From: Kalaharituber pfeilii
Lineage: Eukaryota > Ascomycota > Pezizomycetes > Pezizales > Pezizaceae
Direction: 5' to 3'
NCBI GenBank assembly: GCA_015179045.1
Contig: WHUZ01000122.1
Coordinates: forward strand, 62,001 to 126,000
Length of the DNA stretch: 64,000 nucleotides
The notes beneath the pieces are model-generated. The model made no database searches. It saw only the letters and a program-made list of their open reading frames with translations, and was not told the DNA's origin. The translations under genes and the position numbers were made by a program. Shown here in pieces: positions 5,791 through 47,786 of this stretch (positions are counted from its first letter, which is position 1; the number at the start of each line of letters is the position of its first letter).

Positions 5791-5822
<32 letters not shown>

Positions 5823-5860
5823 CACGTGACCCCGCTTGTAGCTGTTCGCCATGGCAGGGC
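5791..5860 (-). mobile_element. Micro-retroposon, A type (70 bp)
   Basis: The insertion is 32 T plus a 38-nt body holding only the A hairpin. Perfect 13-bp duplications ACTCTATGGTGGT lie at 5778-5790 and 5861-5873. In sense orientation the body starts GCCCTGCC and ends GGGGTCACGTGA before the A-run. The copies at 20102-20164 and 47717-47786 have the same body. Confidence 0.9.
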
Positions 5861-5945
5861 ACTCTATGGTGGTAGTTGCCCAATTCAGCATCTGAAGCCT
5901 ATGTAGGTGTAAAATGGCAAGATGGATATTTATGACCTTGAGCAA

Positions 5946-6387
5946 TTTTTTTATTTTTTTTTTATTTCATTAATCGCGTGCCGCCCTATGGGCTATGGCG
6001 ATGTTTAAGTACATGGATAAGAAAAATTAGGAAAAGAAAAAATTATATATATCTAGTCCTCCCCAGCCCACTCCAATATCTCCACCAGATTCGTGTCTTT
6101 CTCCACCTGCCTTATACCTTCTGCGCCTTTCGTGTTCTTTCGGTTCCAGGCGATGCAGTTGCTCCGTATGTGTTCCCAATTCTCTGGCGCCTGGCCACAC
6201 CATCGGCATTCCGGTGAATCCGCCTTCCCTATCTTGAATCTCCATTCCTTGAGGCCTTTGTTCCCCAGAATTCCGGCCATGGTGGCCAGGTATCGGCGCT
6301 TGTCTGCTCGTTGTGTCGGTCGGTAGTTTAGCTCTGCCTGGTTTCTCTCCGCGGCTCTCCTCGCCTTGTAGTCCTGTCTTATCCCCG
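5946..6387 (-). mobile_element. 5'-truncated LINE (B family), ORF2 C-terminus
   Basis: Duplications GACCTTGAGCAA lie at 5934-5945 and 6388-6399. The minus strand encodes the ORF2 end at 6280-6053: GILGNKGLKEW, then a C-X2-C-X8-H-X4-C knuckle (PECRWCG...HIRSNC), then LVEILEWAG. The 3' UTR and B hairpin (ATCGC/GCGAT outer stem) follow, then the T-rich tail at 5946-5965. The coding end is intact, so the copy is young. Confidence 0.85.
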
Positions 6388-6399
6388 GACCTTGAGCAA

Positions 6400-6853
6400 G
6401 TGCATATACCTTCTATAGTATGTATTCGAGAGATCTGGAATGTTTCATGATAATTGGATACATATGGATTATATACAGACTGAATATCACAGTTTGCTTC
6501 TAGCAGTGAAAATATAGGTATGGATATTAGCTCACTACTTGTTCCATATGGATGCTCACAATTTGGCGTGGTCAAATACCAAGGGAAACGAAAAACGGGT
6601 CAAGACATAGAAGTGTATCAAGAGATGACAGGATGCGTCAATGAGGCATTGCAACAAACACGCCATGGAGTGGCCTGCCCTGAACGTACTATTAATAACT
6701 GGGCGCCACCGAATGGCAAACAACAGTGATAATATAGTCATTGAATAAGCAAGAAGAAAATTCGCCACATTCGAGTAGGTTATAAAAAGGGGCTAGGATA
6801 TCAAACAGAAAAGAAAGGCCCCGAGCAGTGTCTCAAGACACGCTTGACATTGG
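6400..6853. other. No gene seen
   Basis: I find no supported gene or repeat here. It is the 3' flank of the minus-strand NLR gene and probably holds its 3' UTR and polyadenylation signals. Confidence 0.4.
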
Positions 6854-9800
6854 CTACACTATCATAGCATCCTCCCCAGCATCACTGATTCCCGGTTCAA
6901 CTACAGGCTCTCCAAAAGCTTCATGTTGTCTAAGCAGGCGAAAATTGAGTGGATCGAGCCCGGTCACGCCCTGAATGTTTATATTCTGGAGGACGAGTCT
7001 GTTTTGAGGCACTGCCCATAGGCAGGTGATATCCAGGGAGTGACTTGCCTTGTGTTGTACGTGCCACACATAAATTGTATTACTACAACCCACTGCTAGA
7101 TGCAGAGCATTGGGATTGGTCGCCCATGCAAGAGAAGTGATAAAAGTGTGAAAGCAGGTGATGCTGGCCATAGCCTGTTGACGTTGAACTGACCATAGCC
7201 GTACAGTGTAATCCCTACTGCCGGAAGCAAGCAGCTGACCATCAGGAGAGAAGGCTACAGCATTCACCGAGTCACTATGGTCCTGGAAGGTATGGATAGC
7301 CTCTTGACGTTGGACTGACCATAGCCGTACAGTGTTATCATAACTGCCGGAAGCAAGCAGCTGACCATCAAGAGAGAAGGCTACAGCATCCACCAAGTGA
7401 CTATGGCCCTGGAAGGTATGGATAGCCTCTTGACGTTGGACTGACCATAGCCGTACAGTGCAATCGCTACTGCCGGAAGCAAGCAGCTGACCATCAGGAG
7501 AGAAGGCTACAGCCGCCACCGACTCACTATGGGCCTGGAAGGTATGGATAGCCTCTTGACGTTGGACAGACCATAGCCGTACAGTGCAATCGCTACTGCC
7601 GGAAGCAAGCAGCTGACCATCAGGAGAGAAGGCTACAGCATACACCGGGAAGCTATGGCCCTGGAAGGTATGGATAGCCTCTTGATGTTGGACTGACCAT
7701 AGCCGTATAGTCCTATCACCACCGCCAGAAGCAAGCAGCTGACCATCAGGAGAGAAGGCTACAGCATTCACCCAGATACTATGACCCTGGAAGGTATGGA
7801 TAGCCTCTTGACGTTGGACTGACCATAGCCATATAGTACTATCATCACTGCCAGAAGCAAGCAGCTGACCATCAGGAGAGAAGGCTACAGCATTCACCCA
7901 GTCACTATGGCCCTGGAAGGTATGGATAGCCTCTTGACGTTGGACTGACCATAGCCGTACAGTATCATCAATACTGCAAGAAGCAAGCAGCTGACCATCA
8001 GGAGAGAAGGCTACAGTATTCACCGGCTTACTATGACCCTGGAATGTATGGATAGCCTCTTGACGTTGGACTGACCATAGCCGTACAGTGCAATCCCTAC
8101 TGCCGGAAGCAAGCAGCTGACCATCAGGAGAGAAGGCTACAGCATCCACCGACTCACTTTGGCCCTGGAAGGTATGGATAGCCTCTTGACGTTGGACAGA
8201 CCATAGCCGTACAGTATTATCATTACCGCCGGAAGCAAGCAGCTGACCATCAGGAGAGAAGGCTACAGCATTGCTATGGCCCTGGAAGGTATGGATAGCC
8301 TCTTGACGTTGGACTGACCATAGCCGTACAGTATCATCAATACTGCAAGAAGCAAGCAGCTGACCATCAGGAGAGAAGGCTACAGCATTCACCCAGTCAC
8401 TATGGCCCTGGAAGGTATGGATAGCCTCTTGACGTTGGACTGACCATAGCCGTACAGTGTTATCATTACTGCCGGAAGCAAGCAGCTGACCATCAGGAGA
8501 GAAGGCTACAGCATCCACCGGGAAGCTATGGCCCTGGAAGGTATGGATAGCCTCTTGACGTTGGACTGACCATAGCCGTATAGTCCTATCACCACCGCCA
8601 GAAGCAAGCAGCTGACCATCAGGAGAGAAGGCTACAGTATATACCGAGCCACTATGGCCTTGGAGGGTACGGATAGCCTCTTGACGTTGGAGTGACCATA
8701 ACTGTACAGTATTATCATCACTGCCGGAAGCAAGCAGCTGACCATCAGGAGAGAAGGCTACAGCATTCATCGACTTGCTATGGCCCTGGAAGGAAGGCCT
8801 TTCCCCAAACGATACAAGGCCCATGCTAGCTTTACTTAAGTCTGCCTCTCTAAGCCAGATTTGATGCATACGAACCTGCTCCCCATAGCACTAATGTATT
8901 AGATTGGATAGGTATAATGAGTTCTAGTTGGAATGTACAAACCTGATCTAGATCTGCATTTTGCAATTGAGCCCGCTCGAAAAAGCCACCACTTAGATCA
9001 GCTCTGGGGATCTTTATCCCGCGCAAATCATAACCATGAAAGTTCTTTCGACTTCTAACTAGGATTGTGATTGCATTCGCTGCCGCTGTGGAAAAAGTAA
9101 TGTCGATTTTGGATCGCTCAACTAAGGCTAGAAGATTGTCTTGTAATACCCTCGCTCTCTCAACTATGAAGTCAAGAATACCGGGATCATCAACAAGGTG
9201 AAACTCGTTGATTAATGCAGCTGCTTCACAATTTTTGAATAGTTCATCCTGCCAAATTACTTCAGCTACTAAATAGTCCCGAAGCGACTTGTGTAAAAAT
9301 CGATATGAATCCCCCTGTCGAATAAGTGGTGAACTAAGGCGCAAAATCCGTATTTTGTCATCATCGTTTGCTAAAAATCGTTTCCAGGCGGACTGATCCT
9401 GTGCAATAGAATTTGAGAAAATATCAATGGCGGGGGCATAGGTTGCTTCTAGCACCTGATGACGATAGAGAGCCAGTGCAAACTGTTGACAATAGCATCG
9501 TGCGTGGAGGCTGAAGTTGACCTCATCTAACAGAGTGTATGCATTACGCTGGGTTTCTGGTAGTTGAATAGTATCCAAACGGGCATGTGCTCGGTCTAAC
9601 CAATAGGTAATAAATTGTTCGTATAAATTTGCACGTGTGATCCTGTCTCTGCCTTGAACTGGTCTCACAGTCATAGCCATCTTGAGGAGGAAAGGGTTGC
9701 TCATCAAGGCAAACACATCGGGTTTTGAGATATACTGCTCATATTCCTCCACTGAATGGCCAGGTCTAGCCTCTACAAATTGCGAAATATACTTCCTAAT

Positions 9801-10849
9801 ATCTACCTTGGAAAACGGTGCAAGGTAATATTCTTGAAATAGTTGTGGCTGACCAGGAGGGTAAAACTTGCTTTGATACCCGGAGGGCAAATATTCGGGT
9901 CGGCTGGTGATAACAACTTTAGCTTTCCACAAGTCAAGCTCATTTGCTATAAAAAAGTTGCGGTCCCGTCTCTCAATTTCATCATAACCATCCAAGATAA
10001 ACACAAACTGCCGTTGACGCCGAACCAGGTCTATTTGGTCTTCACGAAAACCCTGTTTAGTAAAGAAAGCAGCTATTAGGTCTCGGTTGTGGATTCCCGA
10101 TGTATGCACTCTAAAGAGTGGAATAAACACAGGAACTATTTCGGTTTCTTGATTGGGAGCTTTGTCATAATCAGACCATAGCTGGCGTGCAAGATGGTGA
10201 TTGAATGTTGATTTTCCGGACCCAGCTGCACCTTGAATCAAGCAAACCTTTTAATTCATACATGTTAGCAGGGCTGCAAGTATCAAATAAAACAAAATAA
10301 ATGATTAATCGACTTAAATTAAAATAAAACAAACCTTTTGCGGGTTGGCATCTGAAAGGAATGTCTGAACAGCCTCCAGCAGATCAAAACGATTTTTGTC
10401 ATGTGGATGTGTCATTCCCTCGGCTGGAATATATAGGTTGAGCGTAAACTCCTCCAGCTGATGTTGAGCTAGGTAGTTATTCTTGACCTGCTGATCAAAT
10501 TCTGCAAGCAAGGGTGTCCATTCAGTTGTTTGACGTTGATCCCGTGCTAGCTCTATGTTAAAAAGGGCTCAGCACATAATAAGAGGGTATAAACCATACG
10601 TACTAAGTCTAAGTAGTTTTTCATTACTTTCCCTGGACAAATCATCCGTAGGGTCACTGCCGGTCCCCGTATTCCTCTTTTTTCCAGCAGGAGATTGCGA
10701 GCTAGATGGACGCCTATCAATTGGCTTAGGTTAGCCTAGGGAATACAGTGATGAACCGCCGTTAGTTTGGAAACTCACTTGAGCGGCAGCTTAGCCAGAA
10801 AAGATCTTCCCATATTGCCCCTTCCAGACCCTCCAGGCTGGTTATTCAT
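6854..10849 (-). CDS. NACHT-pentapeptide-WD40 STAND NLR (about 1,241 aa)
   Basis: Fungal NLR-type signal-transducing ATPase, likely in self/non-self or heterokaryon recognition, with WD40 repeats as the sensor. Five exons fit one frame: 10849-10779, 10713-10604, 10552-10335, 10247-8943 and 8875-6854. Introns of 65, 51, 87 and 67 bp all have GT..AG ends. The short N-terminal region (about 1-130) is not a family I recognise. The P-loop GAAGSGKS is at about 139-146 and Walker B (FVFILDGYDE) at about 214-223, with a TSRPE sensor after it. Pentapeptide-like text (ADLSGGFF, AQLQNADLDQ, LREADLSKAS) spans the exon 4/5 junction. Then come 13 almost identical 42-residue WD40 repeats (about 599-1140), one degenerate repeat and a unique tail. 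Repeat 5 is three residues short. The start is the first ATG in frame with the exon chain; no frameshift is present, so it is probably functional. Confidence 0.88.
7180..8795 (-). repeat. 126-bp WD40-encoding tandem repeats (13 units)
   Basis: Thirteen units of 126 bp encode the WD40 blades. Units differ almost only at codons after GHS (KS, GS, FP, DW, ES, KP, IW, HL, DS) and after LAS (for example DDN, GDR, IDD, RDC, SDC). Unit 5 (around 8265-8290) lacks 9 bp. Such internal conservation implies recent unit exchange or duplication. Confidence 0.9.
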
Positions 10850-12627
10850 CTTAAATGACTAGTGGGGGAATCACGAAACTGTCGGATGTACAGAGTAGGG
10901 AAAAGGAGAATTTGTATAGAGAGCCTTTTTGTTCACTTCGGAGCGGTGACTGACGGTTTATGGTGATTGTTTATTACTCCGCAGTTGCGATTATTCGTAT
11001 CCCCGCAATATTTTAGCAAGTGACTGGTAAGCGCTGAGCCTGCCGTCGCATTTGCAACGTTGGAAGGGACGGGATGCCTGAAAAATATACTGTACTTGGC
11101 ATCAGCCCCATACATTCAGCCCCCACCGTTACAAATGCTACTCCAGATTGCCATAGGCCAACGCACCCACTTAGACAAGACAGCATCAGTAAAATTGAAA
11201 ATGAACTTTCCGACACGAAACTCTCCCATAGTTTCCAGCAAGCACCACTCCGGTGTTCCTTTCCTGTATTCCGGTCTCTCCGCAAGACCCTTCTTCCTCC
11301 TTTACCCTCCCAGCGCTCACATAAATGCACCCAGGCTCCTTAACCGTCTATACGTCAGTCCCTACATGTTCATCTGCTCTATTCACTTCATCTTTACCTC
11401 TGGCCCTCATACCTGTCTCCATTACTCCCTCCTCCTGGTATGGCATTCATGACCTTATCCTCACCATCCGATCATTATGGCTAGCTGAAGGATCCCCCTT
11501 CTAGCTTGTTTTCTTCACTTTGGTATTTTTGCCCTTTTAGCGCAAATTTATTGATAGTTTGGCCCTAACAGAGGATCCAACCTTGTTTGACTGGAAATAG
11601 GAAAGGCCGGTGTAAACTGGACCATTCTCGCGAATATTTACCCCCCAATATTCTAGACCATGCGCTCTGCCTTCAAGTTGCGAAGCCTATCTATCACCCA
11701 TAGGATGCTCCATATCATTGCGATAGCTCCGGCGATACTGAAAATACCCGCAACTTGCCGTCTAGTCGTTGATTCATGCACAGTCCGATCTCTACCGCGA
11801 TTGCACAGCACAATTTGGTGGCATACTAAGTCAACGGATTAAAATTGCTTACTGAAGTCTAATCAAAATCGAAAATAGCTCCGTATTTTTGTCGACCATT
11901 ACACCATGTCCGCAGAACATGATTACTCTTTGCCTTGCATCCTGAGATTTGTGCGGCGTTTCTGTTCATTAGAGAGTTTGCTGCACTATCACAGGCACAT
12001 TGAATATGAGTCTTCGAGATATTGGGGGTAACGTTTGCAGGATTCCACGTTCTGAATTTTTTGGGAATTGGATTCGGCATTCACGACCGGGGATGTTTGG
12101 GCGGTATATGGACTCGGGATATTACGCACAACAGGACATAGCATCTTTTCGCCCAGCATCTCAAAGTCTCACTCGTCATCCTCCTTATATGCGAAGCATT
12201 CCGCTTCTCCCCTAAACCTCTGCCGGATCAACAAGGATTCTTGGGAATTACGAATGCTACATCTCCACAACTTTGTGCATGTGCTGACTGTGGGGTTACG
12301 GTGGGGGTAATAGGCCAGGTCCTATCAATCAGGGAGGCACTAGCAAACCCTAGAATGCCCCTTTGCTCCGGCGTGAAATCTAGATCTAGCTGAGCCTCTA
12401 TAGAGTGGCGGAAGTTAGCCTAAGCGGAGAAAATCCCCATTGTATTGAAACTGACTTAAGTTTATCCCCGATCTTTTCATGCTAAGGGGATCAAGGAACC
12501 TGTCTGAGGTTTTGCGTTTTTGATTACTGTCCATCTCGGATGCCAGGTCTCAGGGATTTACGGGAAAACAAAGCAAAGATAATGGTGAGAACTTGTATAA
12601 AGAGCCTTTATTCACGTTGACGATGTA
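10850..12627. other. No supported gene; NLR 5' flank
   Basis: Upstream of the NLR there are only short unsupported ORFs. One minus ORF at 12080-11859 has four Cys and could be an exon of a small secreted protein, but no signal peptide or splice partner is evident. I see no transposon tail or duplication. Confidence 0.35.
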
Positions 12628-13267
12628 CCCCCGACAGAAAATTCTAACCGACCTTCAGCGGTGCTACCACCAGAAAGCGGAACAAAGTTCACTGCTTCCC
12701 GATTCAAGAAAGCTGAAAGTGGATCAAGTGCCAATTCTTCCAAGCAATATTGGGAGAGTAAAAGATTGGATGGAAAAGGCGAACCCATGGATGGGGAAGA
12801 TTGTCGCGGCAAAATGGTTTGTGAGGAAAGAGAGGAGGGAGGCAAAGAAGACTAACTCGATTGTTTATCAACCTAGAGGGGGAGCTAGAATCAGATAGTC
12901 AAACACCAGCGAAGGTAAAGTTATCAGGCAAGTGGCACCACTCGTGTCTGTATGACTGGGACAGAACTACTATGGTGGACAGAAAGGGGAAGGGGAGAGA
13001 TGTGGAGGAAACGGACATGACCTGATCCTTCACTTGGAATGTTGGGTACCTGTACTTTGTTTTCTCTTAGAGGATTAGGTTTTCGCTTTGTGTTTCCTCT
13101 ACATCATCTGAGAGTCATGGGTCTCTTTCTATTTTATGTTTTATAGGGGATTGTTATGTAGGTAGTTTGCACAGCTGCCTCTCTCCGGGGCATAAGGACT
13201 TCGGTCCAGTTACCCTGCCATAGCGATTAGCGGTAAGCAGGGTTACGTGATTTAAAAAAGAAAACAA
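12628..13267 (+). mobile_element. 5'-truncated A-tail ORF1 element
   Basis: Duplications ACGTTGACGATGTA (12614-12627) and ACGTTGACAATGTA (13268-13281) flank it with one mismatch. The + strand carries the ORF1 block in broken frames (GRVKDWMEKANPWMGKIVAAKW, split by a frameshift) and the family A 3' UTR. The hairpin stem reads ACCCTGC/GCAGGGT, a compensated version. The short A-run (13253-13267) and the mismatch suggest an older insertion. Confidence 0.8.
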
Positions 13268-19100: not shown

Positions 19101-19109
19101 TCACGCTCG

Positions 19110-19110
<1 letters not shown>

Positions 19111-19146: not shown

Positions 19147-19300
19147 TTCTCCCTTCTTTTTATATCGTGTAACTCCGCTTACGCCTACTCGCCATGGCAG
19201 GGCCCTGGACCGAACCGGAAGCAGGCAAACGCACCCAGAATACAAAAAATCCCATCCCGCTTTCTTCCTCTCAAAGCGCAAAACTAAAAATGAAAAAGGT
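19111..19300 (-). mobile_element. A-tail element with (ATT)n tail
   Basis: An (ATT)12 run at 19111-19146 takes the place of the usual poly-T. A diverged A hairpin (TCGCCATGGCAGGGCCCTGGACCG region) follows. The tail probably arose by slippage from a TTA-ended A-run. No duplication is clear. Confidence 0.55.
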
Positions 19301-19584: not shown

Positions 19585-20101
19585 GGAGAAAGAAGCCGGG
19601 CGGAAGGATTCCAGCAAGACCAGGCCAAGCGGGAGACCCTTATCGTCGGGGTCAAGGGCCCGAACTATCGCCTAGTGGGACTGGACCTAGACTGGGAACT
19701 CAAATTCAACGCAAACCACCAGAGGAGACTAAACCTGGGGAAAGCAGTCTGGGCAGTGGCATCCAGATTACAAAGACTAGGGCCAGCGAAGAAAGACAGA
19801 TATACACCACCAGTGCCAGAGCAATAGTGTGGGGGAGCTGGGCATGGTTGGGCTATAAACGAAATGCTTACCCAGAGCAGAAAACGAGAAAACTAGAAGA
19901 GTGGCAATACACAGTTACAAGATCAATTACCGGGGCCCCGTGGGGCACGCGGAGGGACGTGGTGGAGGACTTGGCAAATGTGGAGTCAGTGCAAGCATTC
20001 CTAGAAGGCGAGAAAACACGGGTGGAAGTAAGGACATTGAGATTCCAGGGCGAGCCCCTTCGGAGGAAGGAGGAGGACACGATCTACCCAAGAGGACACC
20101 T

Positions 20102-20164
20102 TTTTTTTTTTTTTTTTTTTTTTTTTTCACGTGACCCCGCTTGTAGCTGTTCGCCATGGCAGGG
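20102..20164 (-). mobile_element. Micro-retroposon, A type (63 bp)
   Basis: Nested in the LINE. Perfect duplications CAAGAGGACACCT lie at 20089-20101 and 20165-20177. The insertion holds a T-run plus the same hairpin body as 5791-5860, starting CCCTGCC in sense orientation. Confidence 0.9.
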
Positions 20165-21153
20165 CAAGAGGACACCTGGGTTCGAGGAAACCGTTACCCT
20201 TGGCCATACTCGAATAACTGGACAGAGGAGCAGAGAGGCTCGAGTGAGAGAGGAGAATAGACAAGGAGAGAGATGAGGGGTGGAAAGCGGAGTACACCGA
20301 TGGGAGCAGGATTGCGGGGAGAACGGGACCAGGGCTTTGGAAGGATCCCGGGGGATCTAGGTCACACTACTTGGGAACAAGGGCAACAGTGAATGATGCA
20401 GAGTTAATAGCTATGGCAAGGGTACTTGAGAAAGGTGAAGAAGAGCTACTCCTCATAACGGACTCCAAGGTGGCCATCCAAAAGCTAAGGAGCATAGCCG
20501 AGGGACGTCCGACACCCGAAGGGCAGCCCAGCAGGTACGAAAGGCTTGGGAGGAAAGGGTGGTAAGAGGGGGCACAGACGTAGCAGTGATGTGGATAAAG
20601 GGCCACAGGGGCATCGTAGGCAACGAGAGTAGTCTGGCAACAACGAGAGAGCCGACAGGGCGGCCAAGATTGGGGCCCTACTACCATACCAGGAGGAGAC
20701 GACAACGGAGGCAGGGATGCGGATGGAGGCGAGGGCCCAGAGGGCGAGGGAGAGAGCCAGATTGGGCCTAAGCTACAGACCACTGGAACTCCTATGGTGG
20801 ACAGGTATCCACGCAGGCAGACCTCATTGGAGGCAAAGGTCTAAGAGCCTGGAGACATAGGATAGGCAAGGAAGAGAGCCCAGAGTGCCGGTGGTGTGGG
20901 GAAGCCGAGGAGACGGAGGAGCACATATGGAACGAGTGCGGGTATGGAGACTGAAGTGGCCAGGGGGGGGCGGACGCGCTGAGGGACCCACCGAAGGGGA
21001 AGGAGGGCGGGAGGGTCCCGCTGGTCGAGATGATGACTAGTAGTTACGTCGGTTTTGCAATCTATTTGTTACATTTATTTCCTATCTCTCCTTTGTACCT
21101 AATCTCGCCATAGCCCTTAGGGCGGCATGCGAGCAAAGATATTTAAAAAAAAA

Positions 21154-21511
21154 GTACTATAGATCATGTCAGTATGATTGGAATAGAGAGAGATTCCACG
21201 CCTGCTGAGGCGCCGCTGTATTTCGATATTATGTCTTTAAACTTGGAGAGAATCATGAGTTGTGATTTTGTCTTTGTCCATTTCTTTTAACCGACATCAC
21301 TAACGAGGGTCGTGGGATCTATGAGATTCGTTATCATTATTTCTGTTACTGATGTTTCCTTAGATGAAGCTTATCTTTATAACAATTGGGGCCGCAAGTG
21401 AGAAATGATATACTGATAACATAATTTTTTTTTTTTTTTTACAAAAAATATTCCAGGTCTGTGTCAGTCTACCATCACCTTTAGCAGAACAGAATCAAAA
21501 AAGAAAAATTT
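21154..21511. other. No gene; isolated T-run
   Basis: The stretch has an AT-rich segment and a T-run at 21426-21440. No hairpin tail is next to it. Nothing else is recognisable. Confidence 0.3.
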
Positions 21512-21622
21512 GGTTCGGCTGGGACTTGAACCCAGACTCTCCACCTCATGCCTCAGCCCTGCTTTTCACTTCGCAGCATGTAGCCTTATCTAGTAGGCGT
21601 CATACCGTTAGACCACCGAACC
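21512..21622 (-). tRNA. tRNA-like gene with intron, isotype unresolved
   Basis: On the minus strand a perfect 7-bp acceptor stem (GGTTCGG...CCGAACC) encloses an A-box-like D arm (TGGTCTAACGGTATGAC) and a canonical T arm (CTGGG-TTCAAGT-CCCAG). The 111-bp length implies an intron of about 35 nt or a tRNA-derived pseudogene. I could not place an anticodon loop with U33 and a purine at 37 with certainty, so I give no isotype. It lies 70 bp before a LINE insertion. Confidence 0.55.
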
Positions 21623-22985: not shown

Positions 22986-23479
22986 TTTATTAAACTCACA
23001 TAACCCCGCTTGCAGCTGTTCGCCATGGCAGGGTCCCTGGACCGAAGTCCTCATGGCCCGGAGACAGGCACCTAAAAACAAACAACAACTCACTATATAC
23101 ACCGACATTAAAAAGGGAATAGAGGAAATAAAACCCATGAGACAACCCACTCCTCCAAAAATGAAAGATTATGCCGTCAAGTCCATTTCCTCCACCTCCC
23201 TCCCCTTCCCCTTTCTGTCCACCTTTGAATTTCTGTCCCAGTCGTGCAGGCACGAATCGTACCACTTGCCTGACAACCTTACCTTCGCTGGTGTTTGGCT
23301 ATCCGATTCCACCTCCCCCTCCAGGTCGATGACAACAGAGCTAGCCTTCTTTCCCTCCCTCCTCTCTTTCTTCACCAGCCATCTTGCCGCAACAATCTTC
23401 CCCATCCAGGGGTTCGCAGTCTCCATCCACTCTCTTACTTTCCCGAGTTTCTTTGTCACCGCAATTCCATGCACTACAA
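22986..23479 (-). mobile_element. 5'-truncated A-tail ORF1 element (494 bp)
   Basis: Perfect duplications CTTCCACTAACCT at 22973-22985 and 23480-23492. The minus strand encodes an intact ORF1 C-terminus (VVVHGIAVTKKLGKVREWMETAN; KASSVVIDLEGE) and the A 3' UTR with hairpin. It is nearly identical to the protein at 1064-2005, so both are recent. Confidence 0.88.
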
Positions 23480-24406
23480 CTTCCACTAACCTGATGCTTA
23501 GGTATAGCGAAGTCGCTATGATATCTTGCAATATCCTCCCAACATTCTCCGTCAGGAAAGTCCACCCGCATATACTGTTCGTTTACTGTACTGCCGTAAG
23601 CCATGGGAAGATAGTGCGACGTCGTTTCCCTCCCTTAGGGGTTGATCCGTGGGGAATGTCTGCTCGTGTGAGGCGGATACCTCCTCTGCTACAAGGCACA
23701 GGCAAAAAATTCCCATACTTTGCCTTATCTCTCCCAGTGTACAACTTGCTCATATCTGTGTTCTCCCCTGCGGGGAGCTGCTCTGCTCCCAGCTGGTTTT
23801 CAACCTCATGCCACCACTCTTGAAGTCTCCTATGGAATCCCTTCACTAGTACTGTGCATCCTTCCTCATCCTCATGGCCTAGACTGACGCTTCCTTGCAC
23901 CGCATTTCGCCCGCAGCTTTTGCTTAAATAGTTCTGAACATTGAGATTAAAATGGTGAAACCCAGTCGATTCCATCCGCTCTGGCATCCTTAGTATAATA
24001 GGGTACTGAGATAAGCCGCCAGTTATTGTCCGGGCGACTTGCCACTGTCAAGGCATAGTATATTGGATCCGTTCTAATTACCTGCCATACTAATGAGTAG
24101 TACATGTTCCTGAGCCACCCTCTTCGACTTTCTGGACCCCCTTCTGGGTAATAGTGCCAATCGTACATATCATATTCCTGGCTTATTACTTCCATTATTG
24201 AAGGATCCTCAATGAGGAATGTAACCATATTAGGGATGTTGATGGTGCCGTCTTGCTGGAACTGTGTCCAGGCCTTCGCAGAGGCAAACATGGTGAATAC
24301 TGCGGCGGGGCTGACTACGAACTTGAAATGTTCCAGCGTCTTGTAAATGTTTGGTGACTATCCATTGATGAACCCTGTACTTTGCCCAGATGTTAAAACT
24401 TGCATA

Positions 24407-24493
24407 ACCTGACCCGGGTATAGGGGTCCCTGCGATAGGCTGGTAGCCCGTAAGCGGGGTTCCGTGACTCAAAAAAAAAAAAAAAAAAAAAAG
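24407..24493 (+). mobile_element. Diverged A-tail mini-insertion inside an intron
   Basis: Duplications AACTTGCATA at 24397-24406 and 24494-24503. A 64-nt body with a diverged A hairpin (CCCTGCG...GCGGGG) and about 20 A. It lies within the inferred intron 24358-24515, and strand is opposite to the gene. Confidence 0.8.
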
Positions 24494-24973
24494 AACTTGC
24501 ATACTAATTGGATACTTTTGTTTGATACCAGAATAGTGTGTTGAGATCTTCGTTGCAGACATGCAAGAATTGCCGGCCACGCAAATCAAGGATATCTTGA
24601 TCTCCCTTAAGAAGTTTCTCACGGAAAGAATTCTGCAGAAACGTCTCCTGCTTGACTGAAATCGATACCGCCTCTTGACATTCTGCTTCGGGAATTTCGT
24701 AGGTTGGTGCCACGGCATGAACTTTCTCCAGTGCAGCGCTCACTAAGGCTTCTGGTTCATCGACAGGGACAATGTTTCGGTGGTTGAGTCATTTGACCTG
24801 ATTGCTATAGATTGAAGGTATGCGGTATGCTTGTTTAAAAAAATTGAGTAATCAAAGTTGTCCGTCGAGAATTCTGGCAGGTCCATTGTATTGAAGATAA
24901 TTCTGTCCAGATCTGTGATCATTGCTTGCTTGGAATATGTTGGATTCCGCCAAAATATAGAGCCAAATTAGCT

Positions 24974-27375: not shown

Positions 27376-27475
27376 AAGCCTGCCTCCGGGCTTTGAGGGT
27401 TTAGACCTAGGGGCCCTGCCATGGCGAACAGCTGCAAGCGGGGTCACGTGAAAAAAAAAAAAAAAAAAAAAAAAA
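27376..27475 (+). mobile_element. A-tail insertion
   Basis: The body begins near AAGCCTGCCTCCGGGC and ends with the A hairpin (GGTCACGTGA) and 25 A at 27451-27475. I could not find a convincing duplication. It separates the upstream flank (27476-27640) from the ORF at 27346. Confidence 0.7.
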
Positions 27476-32679: not shown

Positions 32680-34857
32680 TTAGTACTTCTGCACATACTG
32701 AACTATCCATAGTTGGAGCAAAACGAACGCATGAAATGTCAACCCCGCCTCACCACGCTTCTTATCCTTTTTATTCCGCGCCTTCCCAAAGCCAATAATA
32801 TTCGTCAGAATCAGTGGTGTCTCTGCTCCGGCGGACGGTGGATTGGATACCAGCAGATCCCCATATGTTCTTCTCCCTGAGCTGATTTCGCCCGCAGGAA
32901 TCCCGCCCAGCTCATTTAAAGGTACCGGCGCCCTAGTGCTAAAGCTATACGCAGCTTTTGGAGCCCCGCGGCCTTCGGCAATGAATTGCCCAGAATGAAA
33001 TGCGCCATGGAAGGTGTTTTTGAGGGATTCCCAGCCCGAGATTCGGGCTCTGACAGAGCCACTGCAGATGCCGAGGCTTTCAACGAGGCTGGCGCTGGTG
33101 CCAGGGATGGGAGTGAGATCTCGTTTCCGCTTCTTCGGTGAGGTGGGTGGTTGTGGTAATGGGCTCGATTTTTGTGAGGATGGCTGTTTGGCTTGGCCGT
33201 TCGGGAGAGCAGGTGGCTCAGGACAAAGTGCCTCCTCGGATTTGCATCCGTCTTGCTCGCTGTGAAAGGTAAGGAAATTAGTATTCGCAGCTTAATGAGA
33301 GGATAGCAGCCGTTTCACATACAAGAGAAACAATGGGGAGGGAGAGGATGATGATCGACCATCACTCGCACTATTAACTGGTCTTTGTTGGACGGTACTT
33401 GTGGTGGTGGTCAGGGTTACAATGCCCATATGGCCTTGTTCTGCACTAGGATCGGCCTTCATCTGAACAGTGCTTACTGTTAGAAGTGGGCTGCTATCAG
33501 GTGTGGCACCTTGTTGTTTTCTAGGAGTCTTGATGCTCCGAAAGAAACGTGTGAGTTTGGACGGGCTCGGACTTTGAGTTTGTTCGTTGGAACCTGGGCG
33601 ACCTCCCGGCTCTCGGGTATGTTGCTGGGGGATTCTGTTTACACGAATGTGCTAGTGAGCACAAGTATTTTGCGATTATAGTGTCTATCAATGATGCCTG
33701 AAGTATTCTCACCTGAGCCAGCCGCTCCAAACATTGGTCCCATCATCCTCAGTGAGGTAGCCGCTGGTGCTACTTGTGTCAAGCTCGAAGGCGGGATGGG
33801 TGTTCCAGGTTCTTGAGGGACTATCCTCAATAACAGCAGCTGGTGGAAGCAGGGACGCTGAATTCCCAATATGGTGTCTGGAGGGTTCAACGGTACTGTC
33901 ATATTCGATCGGTACAGGTACTTCGTTCCGTATCTTCTGTTGCTGTCCTCGTTTTCTCCTTTCCAAACAAAAACATTCCAAGCTAAATGAAAGAAGCTTG
34001 GCCCAAGTGGAATTGCGGGGCTTTGGCGTAGATTTACTTTCTTGGTTCATTTGCGGGCCACTCGTATAGCCACCAGGTTGAAGTCCCTCAGTCTGAAGTT
34101 CTGGGATATCTTGTGGTTTGTTATGAAGAGTTGAATGAGTTTCGTTGTGACTGCGAGAATCTTCAGGTGTCGGATTAGCCATTCCAAAAGTGTCAGGAGA
34201 CGGAAATGATTGATAAATAGGTGTTTCCTTATTCATCTGTCGGCGCTCGCCGAGACCGATAGGAACCCTACTTGCGCTGGAGACTCTCGGGCGTAGGGAG
34301 GGGGAACGAGTCGAGCTTGAGCGAAGTGGAACAGAGACAGCCAAGCGTTGCACAGGTTGTGCCCTACCCAGTTCTTTCCTCTCGTTAATGTCTGGAAGGT
34401 TGCTATTCAATGGCTGCACAAGGGCCTCGGAGTGCGATACAGTACGTCGTAGCGGTGGGTCGAAATTCAGAGTTATGGTTGTCCTGCTTGTTGTGGCTTC
34501 GTTGGTGGCGGCTGCTTGGCTGTTTGTGGATTCTATGGCGGTGGTCGTACTAGGGAATGTCCCGTAAGCGGCCCGCTGCACCTCAAAGTTTGATCTTCGG
34601 CGCGTTTTGTAGATTTGAATACTATGGGCGGGCACCTTCGTGATAACGTTGTGGACTTTACTGGTATCAGGACTTCGCCCACAAATAAGAACCGGTTCTT
34701 GAAGTGCGGTTTGATCATTCTGAGTATCCTTCGCTTCGCCGTTTTTGAAATGCAAGGCTGTCTTGATCTTGTGAATTTGTGCGATGAGGGGCATTTGCTT
34801 ACCCTCATCAAACGTCCGACTGGGCTGCAGGGAGCCGAGTGTGAGTTGAGTTCCCAT
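32680..34857 (-). CDS. Unknown protein, three exons (about 678 aa)
   Basis: Exons 34857-33713, 33634-33323 and 33259-32680 join in one frame. Introns are 78 bp (GTGAGA..AACAG) and 63 bp (GTATGT, TACTAAT branch, CACAG). The N-terminal half is Ser/Thr-rich and disordered. A basic PKKRKRD motif in exon 3 looks like a nuclear localisation signal. The C-terminal third (SGRRTYGDLLVSN, LILTNIIGFGK, FHAFVLLQLWIVQYVQKY) looks like a folded domain, but I know no family. The stop codon (32682-32680) lies inside the duplication of the retroposon 31326-32677, so the protein is unchanged while the native 3' UTR is pushed 1.35 kb away. Confidence 0.7.
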
Positions 34858-37880: not shown

Positions 37881-37884
37881 AAAT

Positions 37885-39144: not shown

Positions 39145-39182
39145 GCATGCGAGTAATGAAATTAAAAAAAAAAAAAAAAAAT
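39145..39182 (+). mobile_element. Ultra-short B-tail insertion (38 bp)
   Basis: Perfect 14-bp duplications TAATCATTTGTAAG at 39131-39144 and 39183-39196. Only 19 nt of the B tail (GCATGCGAGTAATGAAATT) plus 18 A were inserted. It is the shortest insertion in the window. Confidence 0.88.
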
Positions 39183-41486: not shown

Positions 41487-41549
41487 TTTTTTTTTTTTTT
41501 TTTTTTTTTTTTCATTTTATTCGCTTGCTACCCTTGGGTCTATGGCGAT
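41487..41549 (-). mobile_element. B-tail mini-insertion (63 bp)
   Basis: Perfect duplications ATGAGACTAGG at 41476-41486 and 41550-41560. A 26-nt T-run plus the B hairpin. The inner stem is ACCC/GGGT, compensated relative to GCCC/GGGC. Confidence 0.88.
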
Positions 41550-42985
41550 ATGAGACTAGGGAGATGATCTTCCTTGAGATTGAACAACTGCACACTCGGC
41601 TGTCAAGCCTATAGCCGCATTCACGTATCACTGCTCGCTTCAGGATGCCCACAAACACTCCAGAAACATCGGGCTTGGCATCTTCAAGGCACACTTTGCA
41701 CAATATCCACCTGCACACGAAATTTGACTAGTCTGGTTTGGTTTGACGAAACGTTGCAGTGACTGTCTTCAGTCTTTATACCCCGCTACATCTCATTCTT
41801 CTATCTTTACTCTTGTTCATCGTTCCGTTCCTTGTCATCCTCTTTCGTTCTCTTTCTGCCCCTGAGACTCTATTCCTTTTCAACCACTCTCCTTCTTTGT
41901 TATAGAGTACCGCTTCACACATTCTTCCTTTGCTTTACTGTGCCTCTGTCGTTCCTTACTCAAAAAGTTAGAGATCAACTGCTAGAAGAAAACCATTGAA
42001 GAATAATGACCCGTCATTATCTCGTCTAAAAAGGATTTCCTAGTTATATTCACCGACTTGGTGGACCATTTGGTCTGCAGTGTTTTCAGGCTGATCTTAT
42101 AAAGGTTGAGGTCATCACCAGAGCGATATAGGCAGCGCTGCCAATACCCATTTTACTCCTTCATCTCAGTGCCGAGACTATTACCTACATCTATCCTTGC
42201 TCGATCTAGCCTGTGATTAGTCTCGTAACCAGGCCTGTGGTGGGTGAACGTTTCTTTTGCCGATTTTGTCTGCAGAACATGAATTTTACTCACATGCTGT
42301 CCCTTCAGCTCCATATTCGTTATTAAACCCATGACGTCGGTCAAATCGTCGCAGTTATTGGATTCATTGATTCATCAGGAAAGGTACTAGACTGTCTTGA
42401 GGTAAGTCCGTCTTTATTTTTCAATATTACACCTTCTTTGAGTGACAATTGATGAAGACGTTCTATATTTTCCTCCAATTTGCTTTATTTCGATTGGACT
42501 ATTGATTTTGTACAGAATATCTGAAACAAGTTTTCGTGTAACTTAAACACTCGCTTACTTTCTTGTTCTAACGGCTTAATGAGACGGTACAGATCTGTGA
42601 ATAAAGCTTCAGCTTCACCAAAATAACCCATTGTATCTAATATAGAGTCCCGGTTTTACGTTTTGTGGAGTAAGTTCATATTTACTCTCGGTTCAAATTG
42701 ACTTCTTTGTTATTGGTATCACATATTGACCACCATAATGGCTACTCTCGGGCAGTCTACATACTTACTGCAATCGTCGGCCATTCCTTTCTTCAATCAT
42801 TATAACAAATATCTACGTTCAGTAAGTCACTGTGTTCCCGCATAACATCCATACAGATCAAAATACTAACTTCTCAAAAGTCTATCTTCTTCTGCACCTC
42901 GAGATTTCTTCATTCACGTTCCTTACGATATTCACAGACATCTCCCTTGATCCATACCAACTTTCTGTTCCAGCACCCATTCAAG

Positions 42986-43744
42986 ATGTTTGCACAAATT
43001 CCGTCGTGTTTTATTGTTCTCTCCTCCCTAACAGCTCTCGCCGCTTCCCTTCCACATGGGCTCGTTTCTATTAACTATCCTACAAACTGTTCCGCCACTC
43101 CATCTTTATCTCTCCTAACCAACCACACCATCTCCACTGCTGCTCCCCTCATCACCTTTTCTCCCCTGAACCCCCGCGATGACGCTCCAGCGAGATTCTT
43201 CAGCGTCTCCTCCAGCAGTACCCAATATGGGATTCTGCAGATAAGTGTGACTTCCAATCCCACCACCAAGTATGGGGTCCTGCAGACTCCGCTTCCTTCA
43301 AATAAACCCGCATTGGACCACAGCAATGACCTGTATGGTGACTTGGGGCTCACAAGGTGGGGTTCTGGTGCGAGCTATCGTGAAGACGGGGCACTGGACA
43401 TTTTTGACGACGGTACTGGTAATGATGGTGAGTTGGCGCCAAAGTATTATGACCCTAAGACCTCACGACCAGCGAGGCCAATTGGTGCAGAGCAGAAGAC
43501 TGCAACAACTGGGAGCGTAAAGGAGGGAAAAAGATCTCCTTTTATTGCTTGTGACTCCGATCTGGATGTGCACGTTGGGGACTTCAAGCCGTTGAAGCAG
43601 TTGATATCGTCTCTCAATAGTACTAAGTCGAAGAAAGTGAGGAGCACAGTGATGGATCGGCAACCGATCGTGCATAACAAGCCTGTTATGGTTGTGTTGG
43701 CTGTAGCAATTGCAGGGGTTCTTGTGGGTGTGCTGGTTTTGTAG
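42986..43744 (+). CDS. Secreted or surface-anchored protein (252 aa)
   Basis: Single exon. The ATG at 42986 gives an N-terminal signal peptide (CFIVLSSLTALAASLP); an ATG 39 bp upstream is in frame but would place residues before the signal. The mature region is Ser/Thr/Asn-rich with several N-glycosylation sequons and two copies of a YG(I/V)LQ motif. An acidic Asp/Gly segment follows. The C-terminus ends in a hydrophobic stretch (VMVVLAVAIAGVLVGVLVL), which fits a GPI-anchor signal or a single membrane anchor. It is probably a cell-wall or plasma-membrane protein; I know no family. A micro-retroposon sits about 250 bp downstream. Confidence 0.65.
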   Translation: MFAQIPSCFIVLSSLTALAASLPHGLVSINYPTNCSATPSLSLLTNHTISTAAPLITFSPLNPRDDAPARFFSVSSSSTQYGILQISVTSNPTTKYGVLQTPLPSNKPALDHSNDLYGDLGLTRWGSGASYREDGALDIFDDGTGNDGELAPKYYDPKTSRPARPIGAEQKTATTGSVKEGKRSPFIACDSDLDVHVGDFKPLKQLISSLNSTKSKKVRSTVMDRQPIVHNKPVMVVLAVAIAGVLVGVLVL

Positions 43745-43992
43745 GTTGAATTTGCTATCTTTTCACTGGAACTTAAATTTCTCCCCCTTTTGTCCCTTTA
43801 TCACTAGTCTGGTTGCCTTTATCACTTATCTCATGATTTCCATATTGGGTACAGTGCCTTCTTACTTCCTTATCTCCGCAGCTGCACAATGTCCTCATCT
43901 TGATTTTCTTCATCTCCTCCATGCACACACCATATCCCGGATATGTATCCTGGTCTTGCATAATTTTGCAGATTTTCAACCTCCTTCCGTAG

Positions 43993-44032
43993 CCCTGCCA
44001 TGGCGAACAGCTGCACGCGGGGTCACGTGATA

Positions 44033-44061
<29 letters not shown>
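43993..44061 (+). mobile_element. Micro-retroposon, A type (69 bp)
   Basis: Perfect 15-bp duplications AACCTCCTTCCGTAG at 43978-43992 and 44062-44076. A 41-nt body starting CCCTGCC and ending GGTCACGTGATAC, then 28 A. Confidence 0.9.
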
Positions 44062-44066
<5 letters not shown>

Positions 44067-44076
44067 CCTTCCGTAG

Positions 44077-45720
44077 GATTCCATCTTTCGTTCTCTCGGC
44101 AAATATCATTTATAAACCCAAGTCATAATCCTGCTTGCTTTCCTCCTTTCTTGCTTTCTTTTCTTCAGAGATGGTCCAGAGAAGGACTATTGTGCCATAC
44201 TCCTATTGTCGTGACCAGTCATACCCCCTATAACACCCTTACATACGAATGCCTATGCAACGATTGTAAATCGATGCCCATAAATACTTCGATACCAGTG
44301 CCCCAATATGTGAGAGGATTGGCCCGAATTCGGTAAAGCTTTTCGCTAACACGCATGGGCTATAGCCTCGCACTCTATATCAGGCACCTCCACAAAAGGT
44401 TGCTGAGGTCTTCCACACCCTGACTCGGAGAAGTGGAAAGCTAATGGTAATTCCTCTTTCCAATGCCTCCTTTTGTCTCATTAGCCTCTTACTTGCGGAC
44501 TATATCTTGAAATGCTAACGTTTGTCTTTTCAGCCCAACCTGATTCACCCTGAGGGCAATCCGGAGCAAATCTTGGTTTGTTTCCGTTCAAGTTTGGTCT
44601 TCTCGCCTGTATATAATGTTACATAGTTTCTCCCGGTGGTTATCGTCTTTCATTGCTTCATTTTCTTCTCTGTTTCTGGCTTCTTCGCATCGGCCTTTGC
44701 TGCCCTAATGGGCAAGCCACTACTGTCGTAACTTGGGACTCCCGTCTTGGGCCTACTGTATGGTGTAGGTATAACCAGGGCACGGAGATGGAGTGGGAGG
44801 TGCCGAGACCCAAAGAACAGGTCAACATTGTTGGAATATTACATCCGTTGCCTCCATGTTGCACTTACTCATTCGTAGTTCGTTTTTATCTATTACTGTT
44901 TCTATGTTTTGTTACACTCATATGACCTTGCATATTATTCACGTCCAAATGACTACTTTGCGACTCTGCTACAGATGTCTCTTACACCTTTCTGACTCTT
45001 CATTCCGTCATGGTTTTATGGTCATTCTATGCTACGCCTCTCACGTATATAATCCTACTCGTCTTGCGATTCTTTCCTCAATAGACTCAAGGGTATCTCT
45101 TTCTCTTCCCTTCGTGAATAGCTTTACCGCGATAATGCAGCAACCGCAAACCTTATTGTTTTTATAAGCACAAGGGGAAGGAAAGGGGAGACAGGAGCTG
45201 GTTAAAGCGCAATCAGCGTAGATGCCAGAGGAGATTAATATGAGTAGTTCACTTCAACTTCTTATTAATTCAATTGCCTCGACGCAACATTCGCTGTTGA
45301 GGTGTTCGCGAAACAAGCATTCCGTTATAAATATTCCTCATGAAGGTGCTATCGCATAGATTTAACCAATTTGCCCGTATACATATGAGGCGCGGAGGTT
45401 GCTTTCCTATGCTTCCTTAAACTGTGTGCGCTATTTGAGTTACGAAGAGTTCGCCTTACAGGAAGCTGTCCTGTGAGTCTGGAAGTTCCGAATCTCGGCC
45501 AGACATGTTGCTGTATCTCACTATACGTATACTTTCGATAAATATTGACCTGTAAGAATGAGCGCACTCTAAGCATCAGTTAGCAAGAATAGGGCTAGTG
45601 ATCAATATGTAGTGGAGGAAGTATATCTGACTCTGATTGACTGTTCTTGCGATCCCGTGAGATGGGTTAATGTCAGTTTTCTGTTAAGCTGTCCGCAGTA
45701 CTGATACTTGAAGGGTCTTT
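44077..45720. other. No supported gene
   Basis: Pyrimidine-rich sequence with short ORFs on both strands and no family resemblance. The minus ORF at 45576-45349 lies where the next exon of the NLR fragment would be but does not resemble that part of the NLR at 53 kb. Confidence 0.35.
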
Positions 45721-45724
45721 TTCT

Positions 45725-46886
45725 TACAGCACGTTCTCCACCACATCAGCCGCTACATCCACTGCCAATTCTGGCTTATCAAGCAAGCACATTTTCTCCA
45801 ACACCTGTCCCGGATTTTTCAAGTCTTCTACAGTACGTTTTCCTAGCTCCAGTAATTTTACATTAGATTCTCTGTGACCTGCTGTATGCTGTGTGGGCCA
45901 AAACTGTTCGTAAAAAGGTCCATTAGGAGGCTCAAGAAGACCAGTATAGCTGCATATAAGTCCAACAATGCTGTAGAAAGGTTTTCTATAGCTGCTTCCG
46001 CTGCTGGAACCACCTTCGAAGTGAGGTATAATTGTTCGTATACTGCACAACGGCTTACTAGCATGCTTACCAGCTCCACACCGACAATAGCAGCTGCCAT
46101 GTTCTGCTCCCCGCTGATGAAAATCTGTGTAGGCCCGTATGCATTAGTTGAAGGCTTCAGGTGAGCATGATGAGAAAGATAACGAGGGTTAATCAAAGGC
46201 AGAGTGTACAAAGAGGGGTATAAGGGGGAGAATGCGGAGTATGCTGGATAATAGCACTGGGGATGCAGGAATCAAACTGTCAAGGTAAATCGCACTCCCG
46301 CCCATGGCAAGGCAGTGTGTACAGGATCAAATTGTGTCGCTACATCTCCTACATGCTTGAACTTTTCAATCCAGCCTGTTATTGCTTCTGCCTTTTCACG
46401 GACATCTATTTCCCTCTGCCCCCATTTCAGCTTCCAACGTTTTTCTTCACATCTTGCCTGGGCCTCCCTGGCAGTCTTCAGAAGCTCTTCCAAGAATTCC
46501 CTTTTTCCAGAAATGGTCTTGACTTCTACCCCTGCTTTCTCCAGCCGACTCCTTTGCTCTGTGCGAAGACCTTCAAATGCTTTTGCCCATAGATCCTTTG
46601 ATACCCCCCATTCATTGCCTTTGCCGCCAAATGTACCCCGCTTCTGATCGTCACCTTTCGCATTAGGGTTATTTCCTTGACTATCATCTCGTTTGATGGG
46701 TTGATTTGTGTCATTTTCACAGGTGCCAGCCAGTTCATCCCCAAGCCGCTCTGTTGGTTCTGCTACAATTCTGGTGTCTGGGTTCGGATTTGGGGAATTA
46801 TTTTGCAAGCTTGGTTTGAATCCAAACAGACCAAGCAATCTGACTTGCTTGCGGGGTCTCGCCTTAGAGGTATTGTGACCCTCCAT
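45725..46886 (-). pseudogene. NLR fragment: NACHT-associated N-terminal domain only
   Basis: Exon 46886-46278, intron 46277-46125, exon from 46124, and a third segment to 45725. The protein ([78 protein letters not shown]) aligns along its length with the N-terminal domain of the ankyrin NLR at 52.0-53.0 kb. That domain type is found before NACHT in fungal STAND proteins. The last residues abut a GTAAGA donor at the exact position where the 53-kb gene has GTAAGT, but no NACHT or repeat exons follow. The first intron donor is also eroded. It could be a decoy or regulator if expressed, but a truncated relic is more likely. Confidence 0.65.
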
Positions 46887-46899
46887 GTTTGGACCTGGT

Positions 46900-46972
46900 A
46901 GTGAGCGGCACGAGCCGAGCCAGCTCGAGCTCACCCTCCAGCTCGGCTCGAGCTAGCTCGTGCCGCTCACTA
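46900..46972. mobile_element. 73-bp foldback MITE with 9-bp duplication
   Basis: Perfect 16-bp terminal inverted repeats (AGTGAGCGGCACGAGC and its reverse complement) and 9-bp duplications GGACCTGGT at 46891-46899 and 46973-46981. The interior is also partly palindromic with AGCTCGAGCT motifs. Nine-base duplications are typical of Mutator-like elements (established), so a MULE-derived MITE is likely. It lies just upstream of the ATG of the NLR fragment. Confidence 0.8.
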
Positions 46973-46989
46973 GGACCTGGTGAGGGGGT

Positions 46990-47700
46990 CCGGGATTGAT
47001 ATCTCGGCCAGACGCTAAGAGATCTCGGTTCCGCTGGTGCTGTGGAAGTTTTTTTTTTGAGTTTCGCTTGCTTTCCATTACTAATCTTTGATGTGTAAAT
47101 GCAGTGGAATCTTGGATTTTGACTCTTACCGAAGAAGTGTAGTGGGATCATTGACGTTAGAGGAGGGACTTTACTGTATGATAGTGTGGTTGTACAACCC
47201 CTGTAAGTTGCGTCTGTTCAGCATGGAGTGCAGCCGCAGCCAGACTGGTACAGTTTTCCCTTGCTATACCGGATCTGTAAACTCCGGCCGTTATTACTGT
47301 AAATAAAATGCTTGGCAGAATACAATAGGGATGGCAGCAAAAATAATAGAAATTGCCTAATTGGGAAGTAGATTGGCAATCACAACCAAATTTAATTATG
47401 TAAAGTCAACTTTAGTAAGCGTGTTCAAGATGAATGCAAAGGCGGGGGAACCAAGATTGGATGTATAAGTATCAGTGTATCCAGTATAGCAAGTATTATT
47501 TGTATGGAGACAGGGCGCAAGAGCCTGGCAATTGCTCTGGTATTGTTAGTGTGTCCGGTATAGCAAGAGGGTTTTGTAAGGGAACGGAATGTAGCAGCCT
47601 GAGAGCATCCGGTATAGCAAGGGAAAAAATGATCAACCACTTGGGTACATCCATTTTGGATCTTCGAGCTGGAAGTCCTTCAATCTCCAGAGCTCCCTTT
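46990..47700. other. No supported gene
   Basis: A minus ORF continues upstream of the NLR fragment to 47151 and could be a lost N-terminal extension. Beyond it, three short direct repeats of the type CCGGTATAGCAAG occur between 47480 and 47620. No gene is evident. Confidence 0.35.
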
Positions 47701-47711
47701 CCGGCACGGGT

Positions 47712-47716
<5 letters not shown>

Positions 47717-47747
<31 letters not shown>

Positions 47748-47786
47748 CACGTGACCCCGCTTGTAGCTGTTCGCCATGGCAGGGCA
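47717..47786 (-). mobile_element. Micro-retroposon, A type (70 bp)
   Basis: Perfect 13-bp duplications GCACGGGTAGGTT at 47704-47716 and 47787-47799. A 31-nt T-run and the same hairpin body as the copies at 5791 and 20102. Confidence 0.9.

Follow-up and report, generated by a model that had tools for sequence, protein, structure and literature searches.

A hairpin of about 39 bases plus poly(A) as an unusually small retroposon in Kalaharituber pfeilii, with a size that seems to be set by RNA folding

Short interspersed nuclear elements (SINEs) bear a promoter-carrying small-RNA head ahead of a tail of the long interspersed nuclear element (LINE) type. Stringent LINEs presumably require their own 3' end, commonly a stem-loop, and stringent SINE/LINE pairs comprise short non-autonomous copies with duplications whose 3' hairpin and tail are common to a resident LINE (PMC3747384, in part). 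Among fungi, AfuSINE2-1a from Aspergillus fumigatus is likewise short, is flanked by duplications and has a 3' end like a LINE 3' untranslated region, resembling a Tad1-type LINE; the AfuSINE2 families measure 140-493 bp, have a tRNA-related head with RNA polymerase III (pol III) boxes and show a low copy number (PMC5063351, in part). Retroposed RNA pieces can also have ends set by structure, as in the mammalian tailless retropseudogenes, which carry duplications and are truncated on their 3' side, without oligo(A), at ends lying in single-stranded regions (PMC5322556, in part). In ordinary 5'-truncated LINE copies, the 3' end, poly(A), duplications and presumed enzyme are those considered here, and the 5' ends are scattered. 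The element described in this work was found in Kalaharituber pfeilii, a truffle-like Pezizomycete, in a window of 64,000 nucleotides (assembly GCA_015179045.1, contig WHUZ01000122.1, positions 62,001 to 126,000). It is an RNA hairpin of about 39 bases plus poly(A), and it seems to be an unusually small retroposon with a size set by RNA folding.

The four copies listed in an earlier sequence-only reading of the window were confirmed, and their flanking duplications are perfect (13, 13, 15 and 13 bp, respectively). Copy 1 occupies 5778..5873 (-), with body and poly(A) at 5791-5860 and duplications actctatggtggt at 5778-5790 and 5861-5873, located by script as ACCACCATAGAGT. Copy 2, 20089..20177 (-), has body and poly(A) at 20102-20164 and duplications caagaggacacct at 20089-20101 and 20165-20177. 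Copy 3, 43978..44076 (+), has them at 43993-44061, flanked by aacctccttccgtag at 43978-43992 and 44062-44076, and copy 4, 47704..47799 (-), at 47717-47786, flanked by gcacgggtaggtt at 47704-47716 and 47787-47799, with one extra base at the 5' junction. The unit body runs from GCCCTGCC to GCGGGGTCACGTGA and is followed by poly(A); it measures 38-39 nt in the four window copies, with the consensus GCCCTGCCATGGCGAACAGCT[A/G]CAMGCGGGGTCACGTGA. The G directly 5' of CCCTGCC is part of the unit and doubles as the final duplication base in two of the four copies (20102 and 43993). The 20-nt 5' part of the body has seven exact matches in the window and none in 100 shuffles searched at up to 3 mismatches, and the complete core has 1002 exact matches in the 78.0-Mb, 360-contig assembly versus 0 for the reversed control, so that chance is excluded for the core. 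All genome-wide counts given here come from exact patterns, with duplications not checked hit by hit, and are hence lower bounds, except for one reverse-strand pattern count (2079 vs 518), which is inflated by a single site being counted repeatedly.

The survey of longer sequences covered 264 kb, namely the window and C2:1-200000, the latter picked for its richness in hits and not for start position. In this DNA the same 3' end closes far longer sequences of several LINE-like families, so that the stand-alone unit, unrelated to LINEs, of the sequence-only reading is not supported. The conserved order of the tail is hairpin 1, hairpin 2, the spacer AGGG, hairpin 3, UYAYGUGA and poly(A), and the spacer between hairpin 2 and the start is of equal length in families A, B, B' and D; the four copies above consist of hairpin 3 only. 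The D form is a 76-nt tail, whose hairpin 1-2 pattern has 177 matches genome-wide, and, beyond hairpin 1, no two of the D copies read were seen to have more than a few bases in common. The longer copies have in common in-register stretches of 62 to 1744 bases, which indicates that ordinary truncation also occurs. The tail ends in UYAYGUGA in 21 of the 21 aligned tails, and its DNA form TCACGTGA is a palindromic E-box. Cbf1-like factors bind such an E-box, and insertions may also bring a transcription-factor site in this way.

Family B is represented by a LINE-like copy at C2:84627-88373 (-), plus a 621-aa frame up to 90664, which closes with the same hairpins. Its 311-aa frame matches Pfam Exo_endo_phos (9.3e-07), and its 981-aa frame matches RVT_1 (1.5e-23) and RNase_H (7.8e-11) and ends about 130 nt before poly(A). 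The copy may not be intact, since endonuclease and reverse transcriptase/RNase H lie in different frames. The 621-aa frame was taken as open reading frame 1 (ORF1), and a 399-aa piece of it gave no Pfam match. The best named relative of the reverse transcriptase/RNase H part is from Kalaharituber pfeilii itself, with 77% identity over 37%. With an APE (apurinic/apyrimidinic endonuclease)-type endonuclease, a reverse transcriptase and an RNase H (Pfam, two frames) in a fungal host, the presumed enzyme source would be a LINE of the Tad1 clade. Frames of families B' (264 aa, C2:104946) and C (354 aa, C2:188001) look RNase H-like by eye, the latter stopping 96 nt ahead of the hairpin arm. In the window, overlapping frames at 48847-51672 (+) also resemble, by eye and in pieces, the family B reverse transcriptase and RNase H.

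The position of the 5' start was profiled in the 264 kb with a sequence-only model (R1) of the 76-nt tail, built from 21 copies, 17 of them inside that DNA. R1 gave 54 matches, with the first model position at 1-4 in 25 and at 35-40 in 24, and with only five elsewhere (13, 19, 29, 43 and 45, one each). Positions 35-40 are the stem base of the last hairpin, where a single shared 5' start had been placed in the sequence-only reading. Three of these 24 (C2:83784, 187999, 195589) are long copies of family C with an upstream part that falls outside the profile, which leaves 21. The 25 matches from 1-4 hold hairpin 1, and they are not a start peak because most of them continue farther upstream; 17 are copies from which the model was built, and one (model 2-25) is a fragment that lacks the 3' end. 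Concerning the scattered five, the duplications of those at 13 and 19 put their start at hairpin 3, so that the extra length is due to chance, and the match at 45 comes from a copy that was divided by a stretch border and whose other half was counted among the 25. The structure-bearing covariance model (R2, 47 matches) was dropped for starts, as it extends nearly all hairpin-3 copies to full length. Hand classification of 49 pattern hits in the same DNA gave 18 hairpin-3-only copies, 5 with a hairpin-1 start or of D type, and 22 longer ones, a few of which were assigned only by the lack of a duplication at hairpin 1; the rest are one that starts inside hairpin 3 (C2:96991), two ambiguous hits (C2:66984, 142765) and a chance match (C2:109085).

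Genome-wide, the exact core is preceded at positions -2 and -1 by [ACT]G in 798 cases and by [ACT]A in 41, and C or T stands at -1 in 26; the C/T count allows any base at -2, and G at -2 with a purine at -1 was left out of the counts. In the D-type class, base -1 is thus approximately 92% G. Unrelated starts would give a mixture near base composition at this position, and a fixed start is therefore favoured. The 264-kb profile and the -1 counts together approximate a genome-wide table of starts, and neither a smooth spread of starts nor, within the tail, the scattered 5' ends of truncated LINE copies was found.

Target-site duplications point to the same start. Across all the DNA read, scoring was restricted to tail-like ends that had an A-rich stretch and did not lie too near a stretch border, 102 in total; the 30 loci chosen for an exact core bring a bias to intact copies, not to any -1 base. 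A recognisable 5' arm was present in 94 of the 102, and 41 of these 94 had a duplication of at least 9 bp ending at most 5 bases from CCCTGCC, compared with a mean of 0.01 and a maximum of 1 when flanks were re-paired between copies in 200 rounds. The remaining 53 include many long copies, for which a duplication would be expected at another place. Among the 41, the duplication is 12-14 bp long in 33, the first A run has 12-32 bases, and base -1 is G in 38, A in 2 and T in 1. The offset from the duplication to CCCTGCC is 1 in 21 copies, 0 in 7, 2 in 9, 3 in 3 and 5 in 1. Taken together, offsets and -1 bases indicate that the unit starts at G(-1). At offset 0 the G serves as the last duplication base too, and 11 of the 13 copies with an offset of at least 2 have G at -1, that is, 1-4 extra bases. 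Microhomology was dismissed as an explanation for the fixed start, as the G is shared in 7 of 41 copies, not above the chance level of 1 in 4.

Five starts at hairpin 1 also have a clear duplication, namely C2:27293 (B'), L009, L065 and L016 (D), and the window copy at 24407 (C), with one extra base in L016. Other offsets were discarded as structural starts: that of 48 at window 461 is a 9-bp match inside sequence common to B' copies, those of 114 (C2:38340, 83785) are matches far upstream, and those of 27 (L012), 6/7 (L014, L051, L006) and 4 (L067) are mostly 7-8-base matches or repetitive sequence. The shortest body noticed among the duplication-bearing copies, at about 30 nt, is that of L042:5269 (C2:115269, -), a hairpin-3 copy that has lost most of its loop and keeps the same start and a 13-bp duplication.

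The fixed start was observed in more than one sequence lineage. Hairpin-3-only copies of the CCATGG type number 798 genome-wide, and those of the CCTTGG type 148, with a further pattern of CCTTGG with AGGGG upstream at 66. The LINE-B hairpin, whose loop differs, gave 237 matches with A at -1 and no G at -3, and 573 with the native GGGA, a pattern one base shorter at its end. As 196 of the 237 also lack G at -2, the part shared by the LINE-B copies ends at -1. The last shared base is therefore -1 in both D (G) and LINE-B (A), in each case the lineage's own tail base, pairing with the opposite U. Native upstream tail is carried by seven of the eight LINE-B-type hairpins read. A single master gene is unlikely, because the fixed start recurs in more than one lineage and five copies start at hairpin 1. 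A cap-derived G was also considered and rejected for LINE-B, where the 196 copies without G at -2 make a templated base simpler; it is possible for the D class, where G is in any case the tail base, and for 96 family-A-like cores discussed below. On these data, the hairpin unit represents a 3' piece of LINE-type RNA that is bounded by structure and occurs in more than one lineage. In another part of the assembly, G000:C304:137551-137952 (+), five CCTTGG-type hairpins lie on one strand at a spacing of about 91 nt, where a hairpin copy seems to have been incorporated into a tandem array.

The tails of D, B, B' and A fold as three hairpins, with hairpin 1 weaker in A. In the 21 copies of these families, 94.2% of the cells of the three-hairpin fold are paired. 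Covariation includes changes from G-C to A-U and from C-G to U-A in hairpin 2 and from A-U to U-A in hairpin 1. Cells with changes on both sides number 16 versus 6.3 in shuffles, a value that, like the covariation score, is above all 500 shuffles. The predicted three-hairpin fold is supported by these comparisons, not overwhelmingly.

These results can be read as target-primed reverse transcription of short polyadenylated LINE-tail RNAs, with 5' ends set by folding, a reading that we consider about evenly poised between right and wrong. The enzyme would be supplied by a resident LINE that encodes endonuclease, reverse transcriptase and RNase H (most likely family B or a relative), and it would recognise hairpin 3 plus poly(A) and prime on nicked target DNA. 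Long RNA templates would give ordinary copies with scattered 5' ends, and the fixed-start copies would come from short polyadenylated RNAs whose 5' end coincides with the hairpin-3 base or, more rarely, with the hairpin-1 base. The fixed end would be made on the RNA before copying, if 5' to 3' decay stalls at a stable helix or a bound enzyme shields it, and the enzyme would then run off the template end. Stalling at hairpins 1 and 3, and not at the short hairpin 2, would yield both start classes. A bolder and rather unlikely extension is that hairpin 3 plus poly(A), at 39 nt, is a sufficient and self-propagating retroposon: host read-through transcripts would be trimmed to the hairpin and reinserted by the LINE enzyme, and RNA structure alone would set both the ends and the heredity.

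Several points weigh against retroposition of short, fold-bounded RNAs. The short polyadenylated RNA is something that we infer from the inserted DNA, and no D-lineage LINE was recognised in the DNA read. Family C does not form three hairpins, the covariation rests on three pairs, about as many as in shuffles (2.8), and additional pair types (9) fall below the shuffled value (12.1). In hairpin 1, the two outer pairs are open in 9 and 10 of the 21 copies, mostly of family A, and folding energies are ordinary compared with shuffles (z of -0.4 and -2.0 for hairpin 3, and of 0.2 and -0.8 for 74-76-nt tails). Hairpin-1 starts with a clear duplication are only five. Moreover, the CCATGG and CCTTGG micro-copies could have one D-type source, so that independence is best shown only by LINE-B, whose count is restricted to A at -1; in the one such LINE-B copy read (C2:99592), a further G precedes the A. 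The family-A-like core (GCAA...TTA) with [ACT]G before CCCTGCC occurs in 96 copies genome-wide, and seven of nine aligned family A tails have A, not G, at -1. These 96 cores could come either from a C-to-T change in the D lineage, from family A copies with G, or from an added G.

The main rival regards the fixed start as a special case of 5' truncation, in which a long LINE RNA is the template and the reverse transcriptase halts after hairpin 3, with hairpins 1-2, which lie four bases farther on, bound to the enzyme or blocking it. The constant AGGG spacer in A, B, B' and D would place the stop at an equal distance from hairpin 2, and hairpin-3-only copies are present in a sequence lineage whose LINE has an enzyme of its own. 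A stop of the polymerase accounts well for the hairpin-3 class. However, it explains the hairpin-1 starts poorly, since the sequence upstream in B' is U-rich and, by eye, not obviously structured. In addition, there is no excess of shared junction bases, and 13 of 41 copies have an offset of at least 2, which fits run-off better, without excluding a stop. Overall, this explanation is somewhat unlikely. Truncation at random along a LINE, looking discrete through a small sample, is highly improbable: the stretches of 62-1744 bases shared by longer copies do show that scattered ends exist, but in the last 76 nt only 5 of 54 starts lie outside the two zones, three of these five being chance extensions or a split copy, and the prevalence of G at -1 in the D-type class speaks against it as well.

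A dedicated gene for a 39-nt RNA, that is, a promoter-driven micro-SINE from one or few master loci, would account for the one dominant class (798 matches) with one start, and the G at -1 in the 96 family-A-like cores fits a common source as well as a cap-derived G. Nevertheless, an equal start is found in at least two clearly different hairpins, LINE-B (237) and D (CCATGG and CCTTGG variants), longer relatives are known for each type, including the seven LINE-B-type hairpins with native tail, and no Rfam match was obtained at two tested loci. This source is quite unlikely.

The window holds further copies of the same tail beyond the four first listed, among them longer, hairpin-1-start and degenerate ones. 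A three-hairpin D-lineage tail (hairpins 1-2-3, 76 nt) with poly(A) lies at 27376..27451 (+), with a model match of 2-76; this copy was itself among the sequences used to build the profile, and no duplication was found at it. The family C copy at 24397..24503 (+), aligned with the other tails, starts at the hairpin-1-aligned segment (24407-24493) between duplications aacttgcata at 24397-24406 and 24494-24503. A LINE-B' tail at 401..474 (+), identified by alignment, closes a longer copy with three hairpins on its 3' side; 372 nt of this copy are in register with another B' copy. Family A is represented at 847..2005 (-) by a copy with a 313-aa frame (1064-2005) and a three-hairpin 3' tail (847-922), in which the frame gave no Pfam match and no reverse transcriptase frame was seen; by an old tail at 13175..13250 (+), found as a profile match; and by a tail at 22996..23071 (-), with about 0.45 kb common to other family A copies. 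Two degenerate tails were also detected, one with three hairpins and an internal deletion at 19169..19227 (-), covering model positions 2-72, and one of hairpin 3 only at 61904..61940 (-), covering positions 38-73. Apart from these copies, translations of the window revealed, by eye, long and very regular repeats, ankyrin-like at 54890-56587 (+) and NACHT/WD40-like at 6854-10241 (-). A protein search with the frame at 33709-34857 gave no match.

Compared with the known systems, the unit is, as the sequence-only reading held, far smaller than SINEs, at about 39 nt versus 140-493 bp in fungal SINEs (PMC5063351, in part), and has no recognisable small-RNA head, since one hairpin-3 and one three-hairpin copy gave no Rfam match at E<=1. 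An origin from a small RNA made by pol III was accordingly rejected, as Rfam matched the unit neither in the window scan nor at the two tested copies, and no pol III A or B boxes were apparent by eye in the 39 nt, a point for which no promoter scan was run. The only Rfam hit in the window at gathering score was a tRNA at 21511-21622 (-) (112 nt, 44.1 bits), of a length that could accommodate an intron, which was not reported by ARAGORN with the bacterial code. As in SINEs, the Kalaharituber copies are short, non-autonomous retroposons with duplications (41 of 94 copies) and an A-rich, LINE-like 3' end; unlike the SINEs of SINE/LINE pairs, they show no tRNA, 5S or 7SL head (Rfam, two copies) and consist only of the last hairpin or the last three. 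They differ from the AfuSINE2 families also in number, with 798, 148 and 237 pattern matches. In contrast to tailless retropseudogenes, it is the 5' side that is fixed, at a helix base, and poly(A) is kept, with A runs of 12-32 bases. With 5'-truncated LINE copies they have in common the 3' end of a resident LINE, through the family B hairpins, but their 5' ends lie at the hairpin-3 base or, in a few copies, at hairpin 1. Hence, the system works like a SINE/LINE pair and is not a SINE in the sense of a promoter-bearing head; it is a LINE 3' fragment that is not randomly truncated. No report of LINE-tail-only retroposons this small was found in titles and abstract openings of the open-access literature, which is a weak negative.

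The annotation of elements of 39 nt calls for caution. Repeat finders easily miss elements of this size. If the fixed start corresponds to an RNA end, more than 1000 insertions in one genome would record LINE RNA fragments that survived and were accepted as templates. If true, this would make it possible to test what the minimal RNA for a stringent LINE enzyme is and whether RNA decay products feed retroposition, and it suggests a route to a SINE-like family without a promoter-bearing head.

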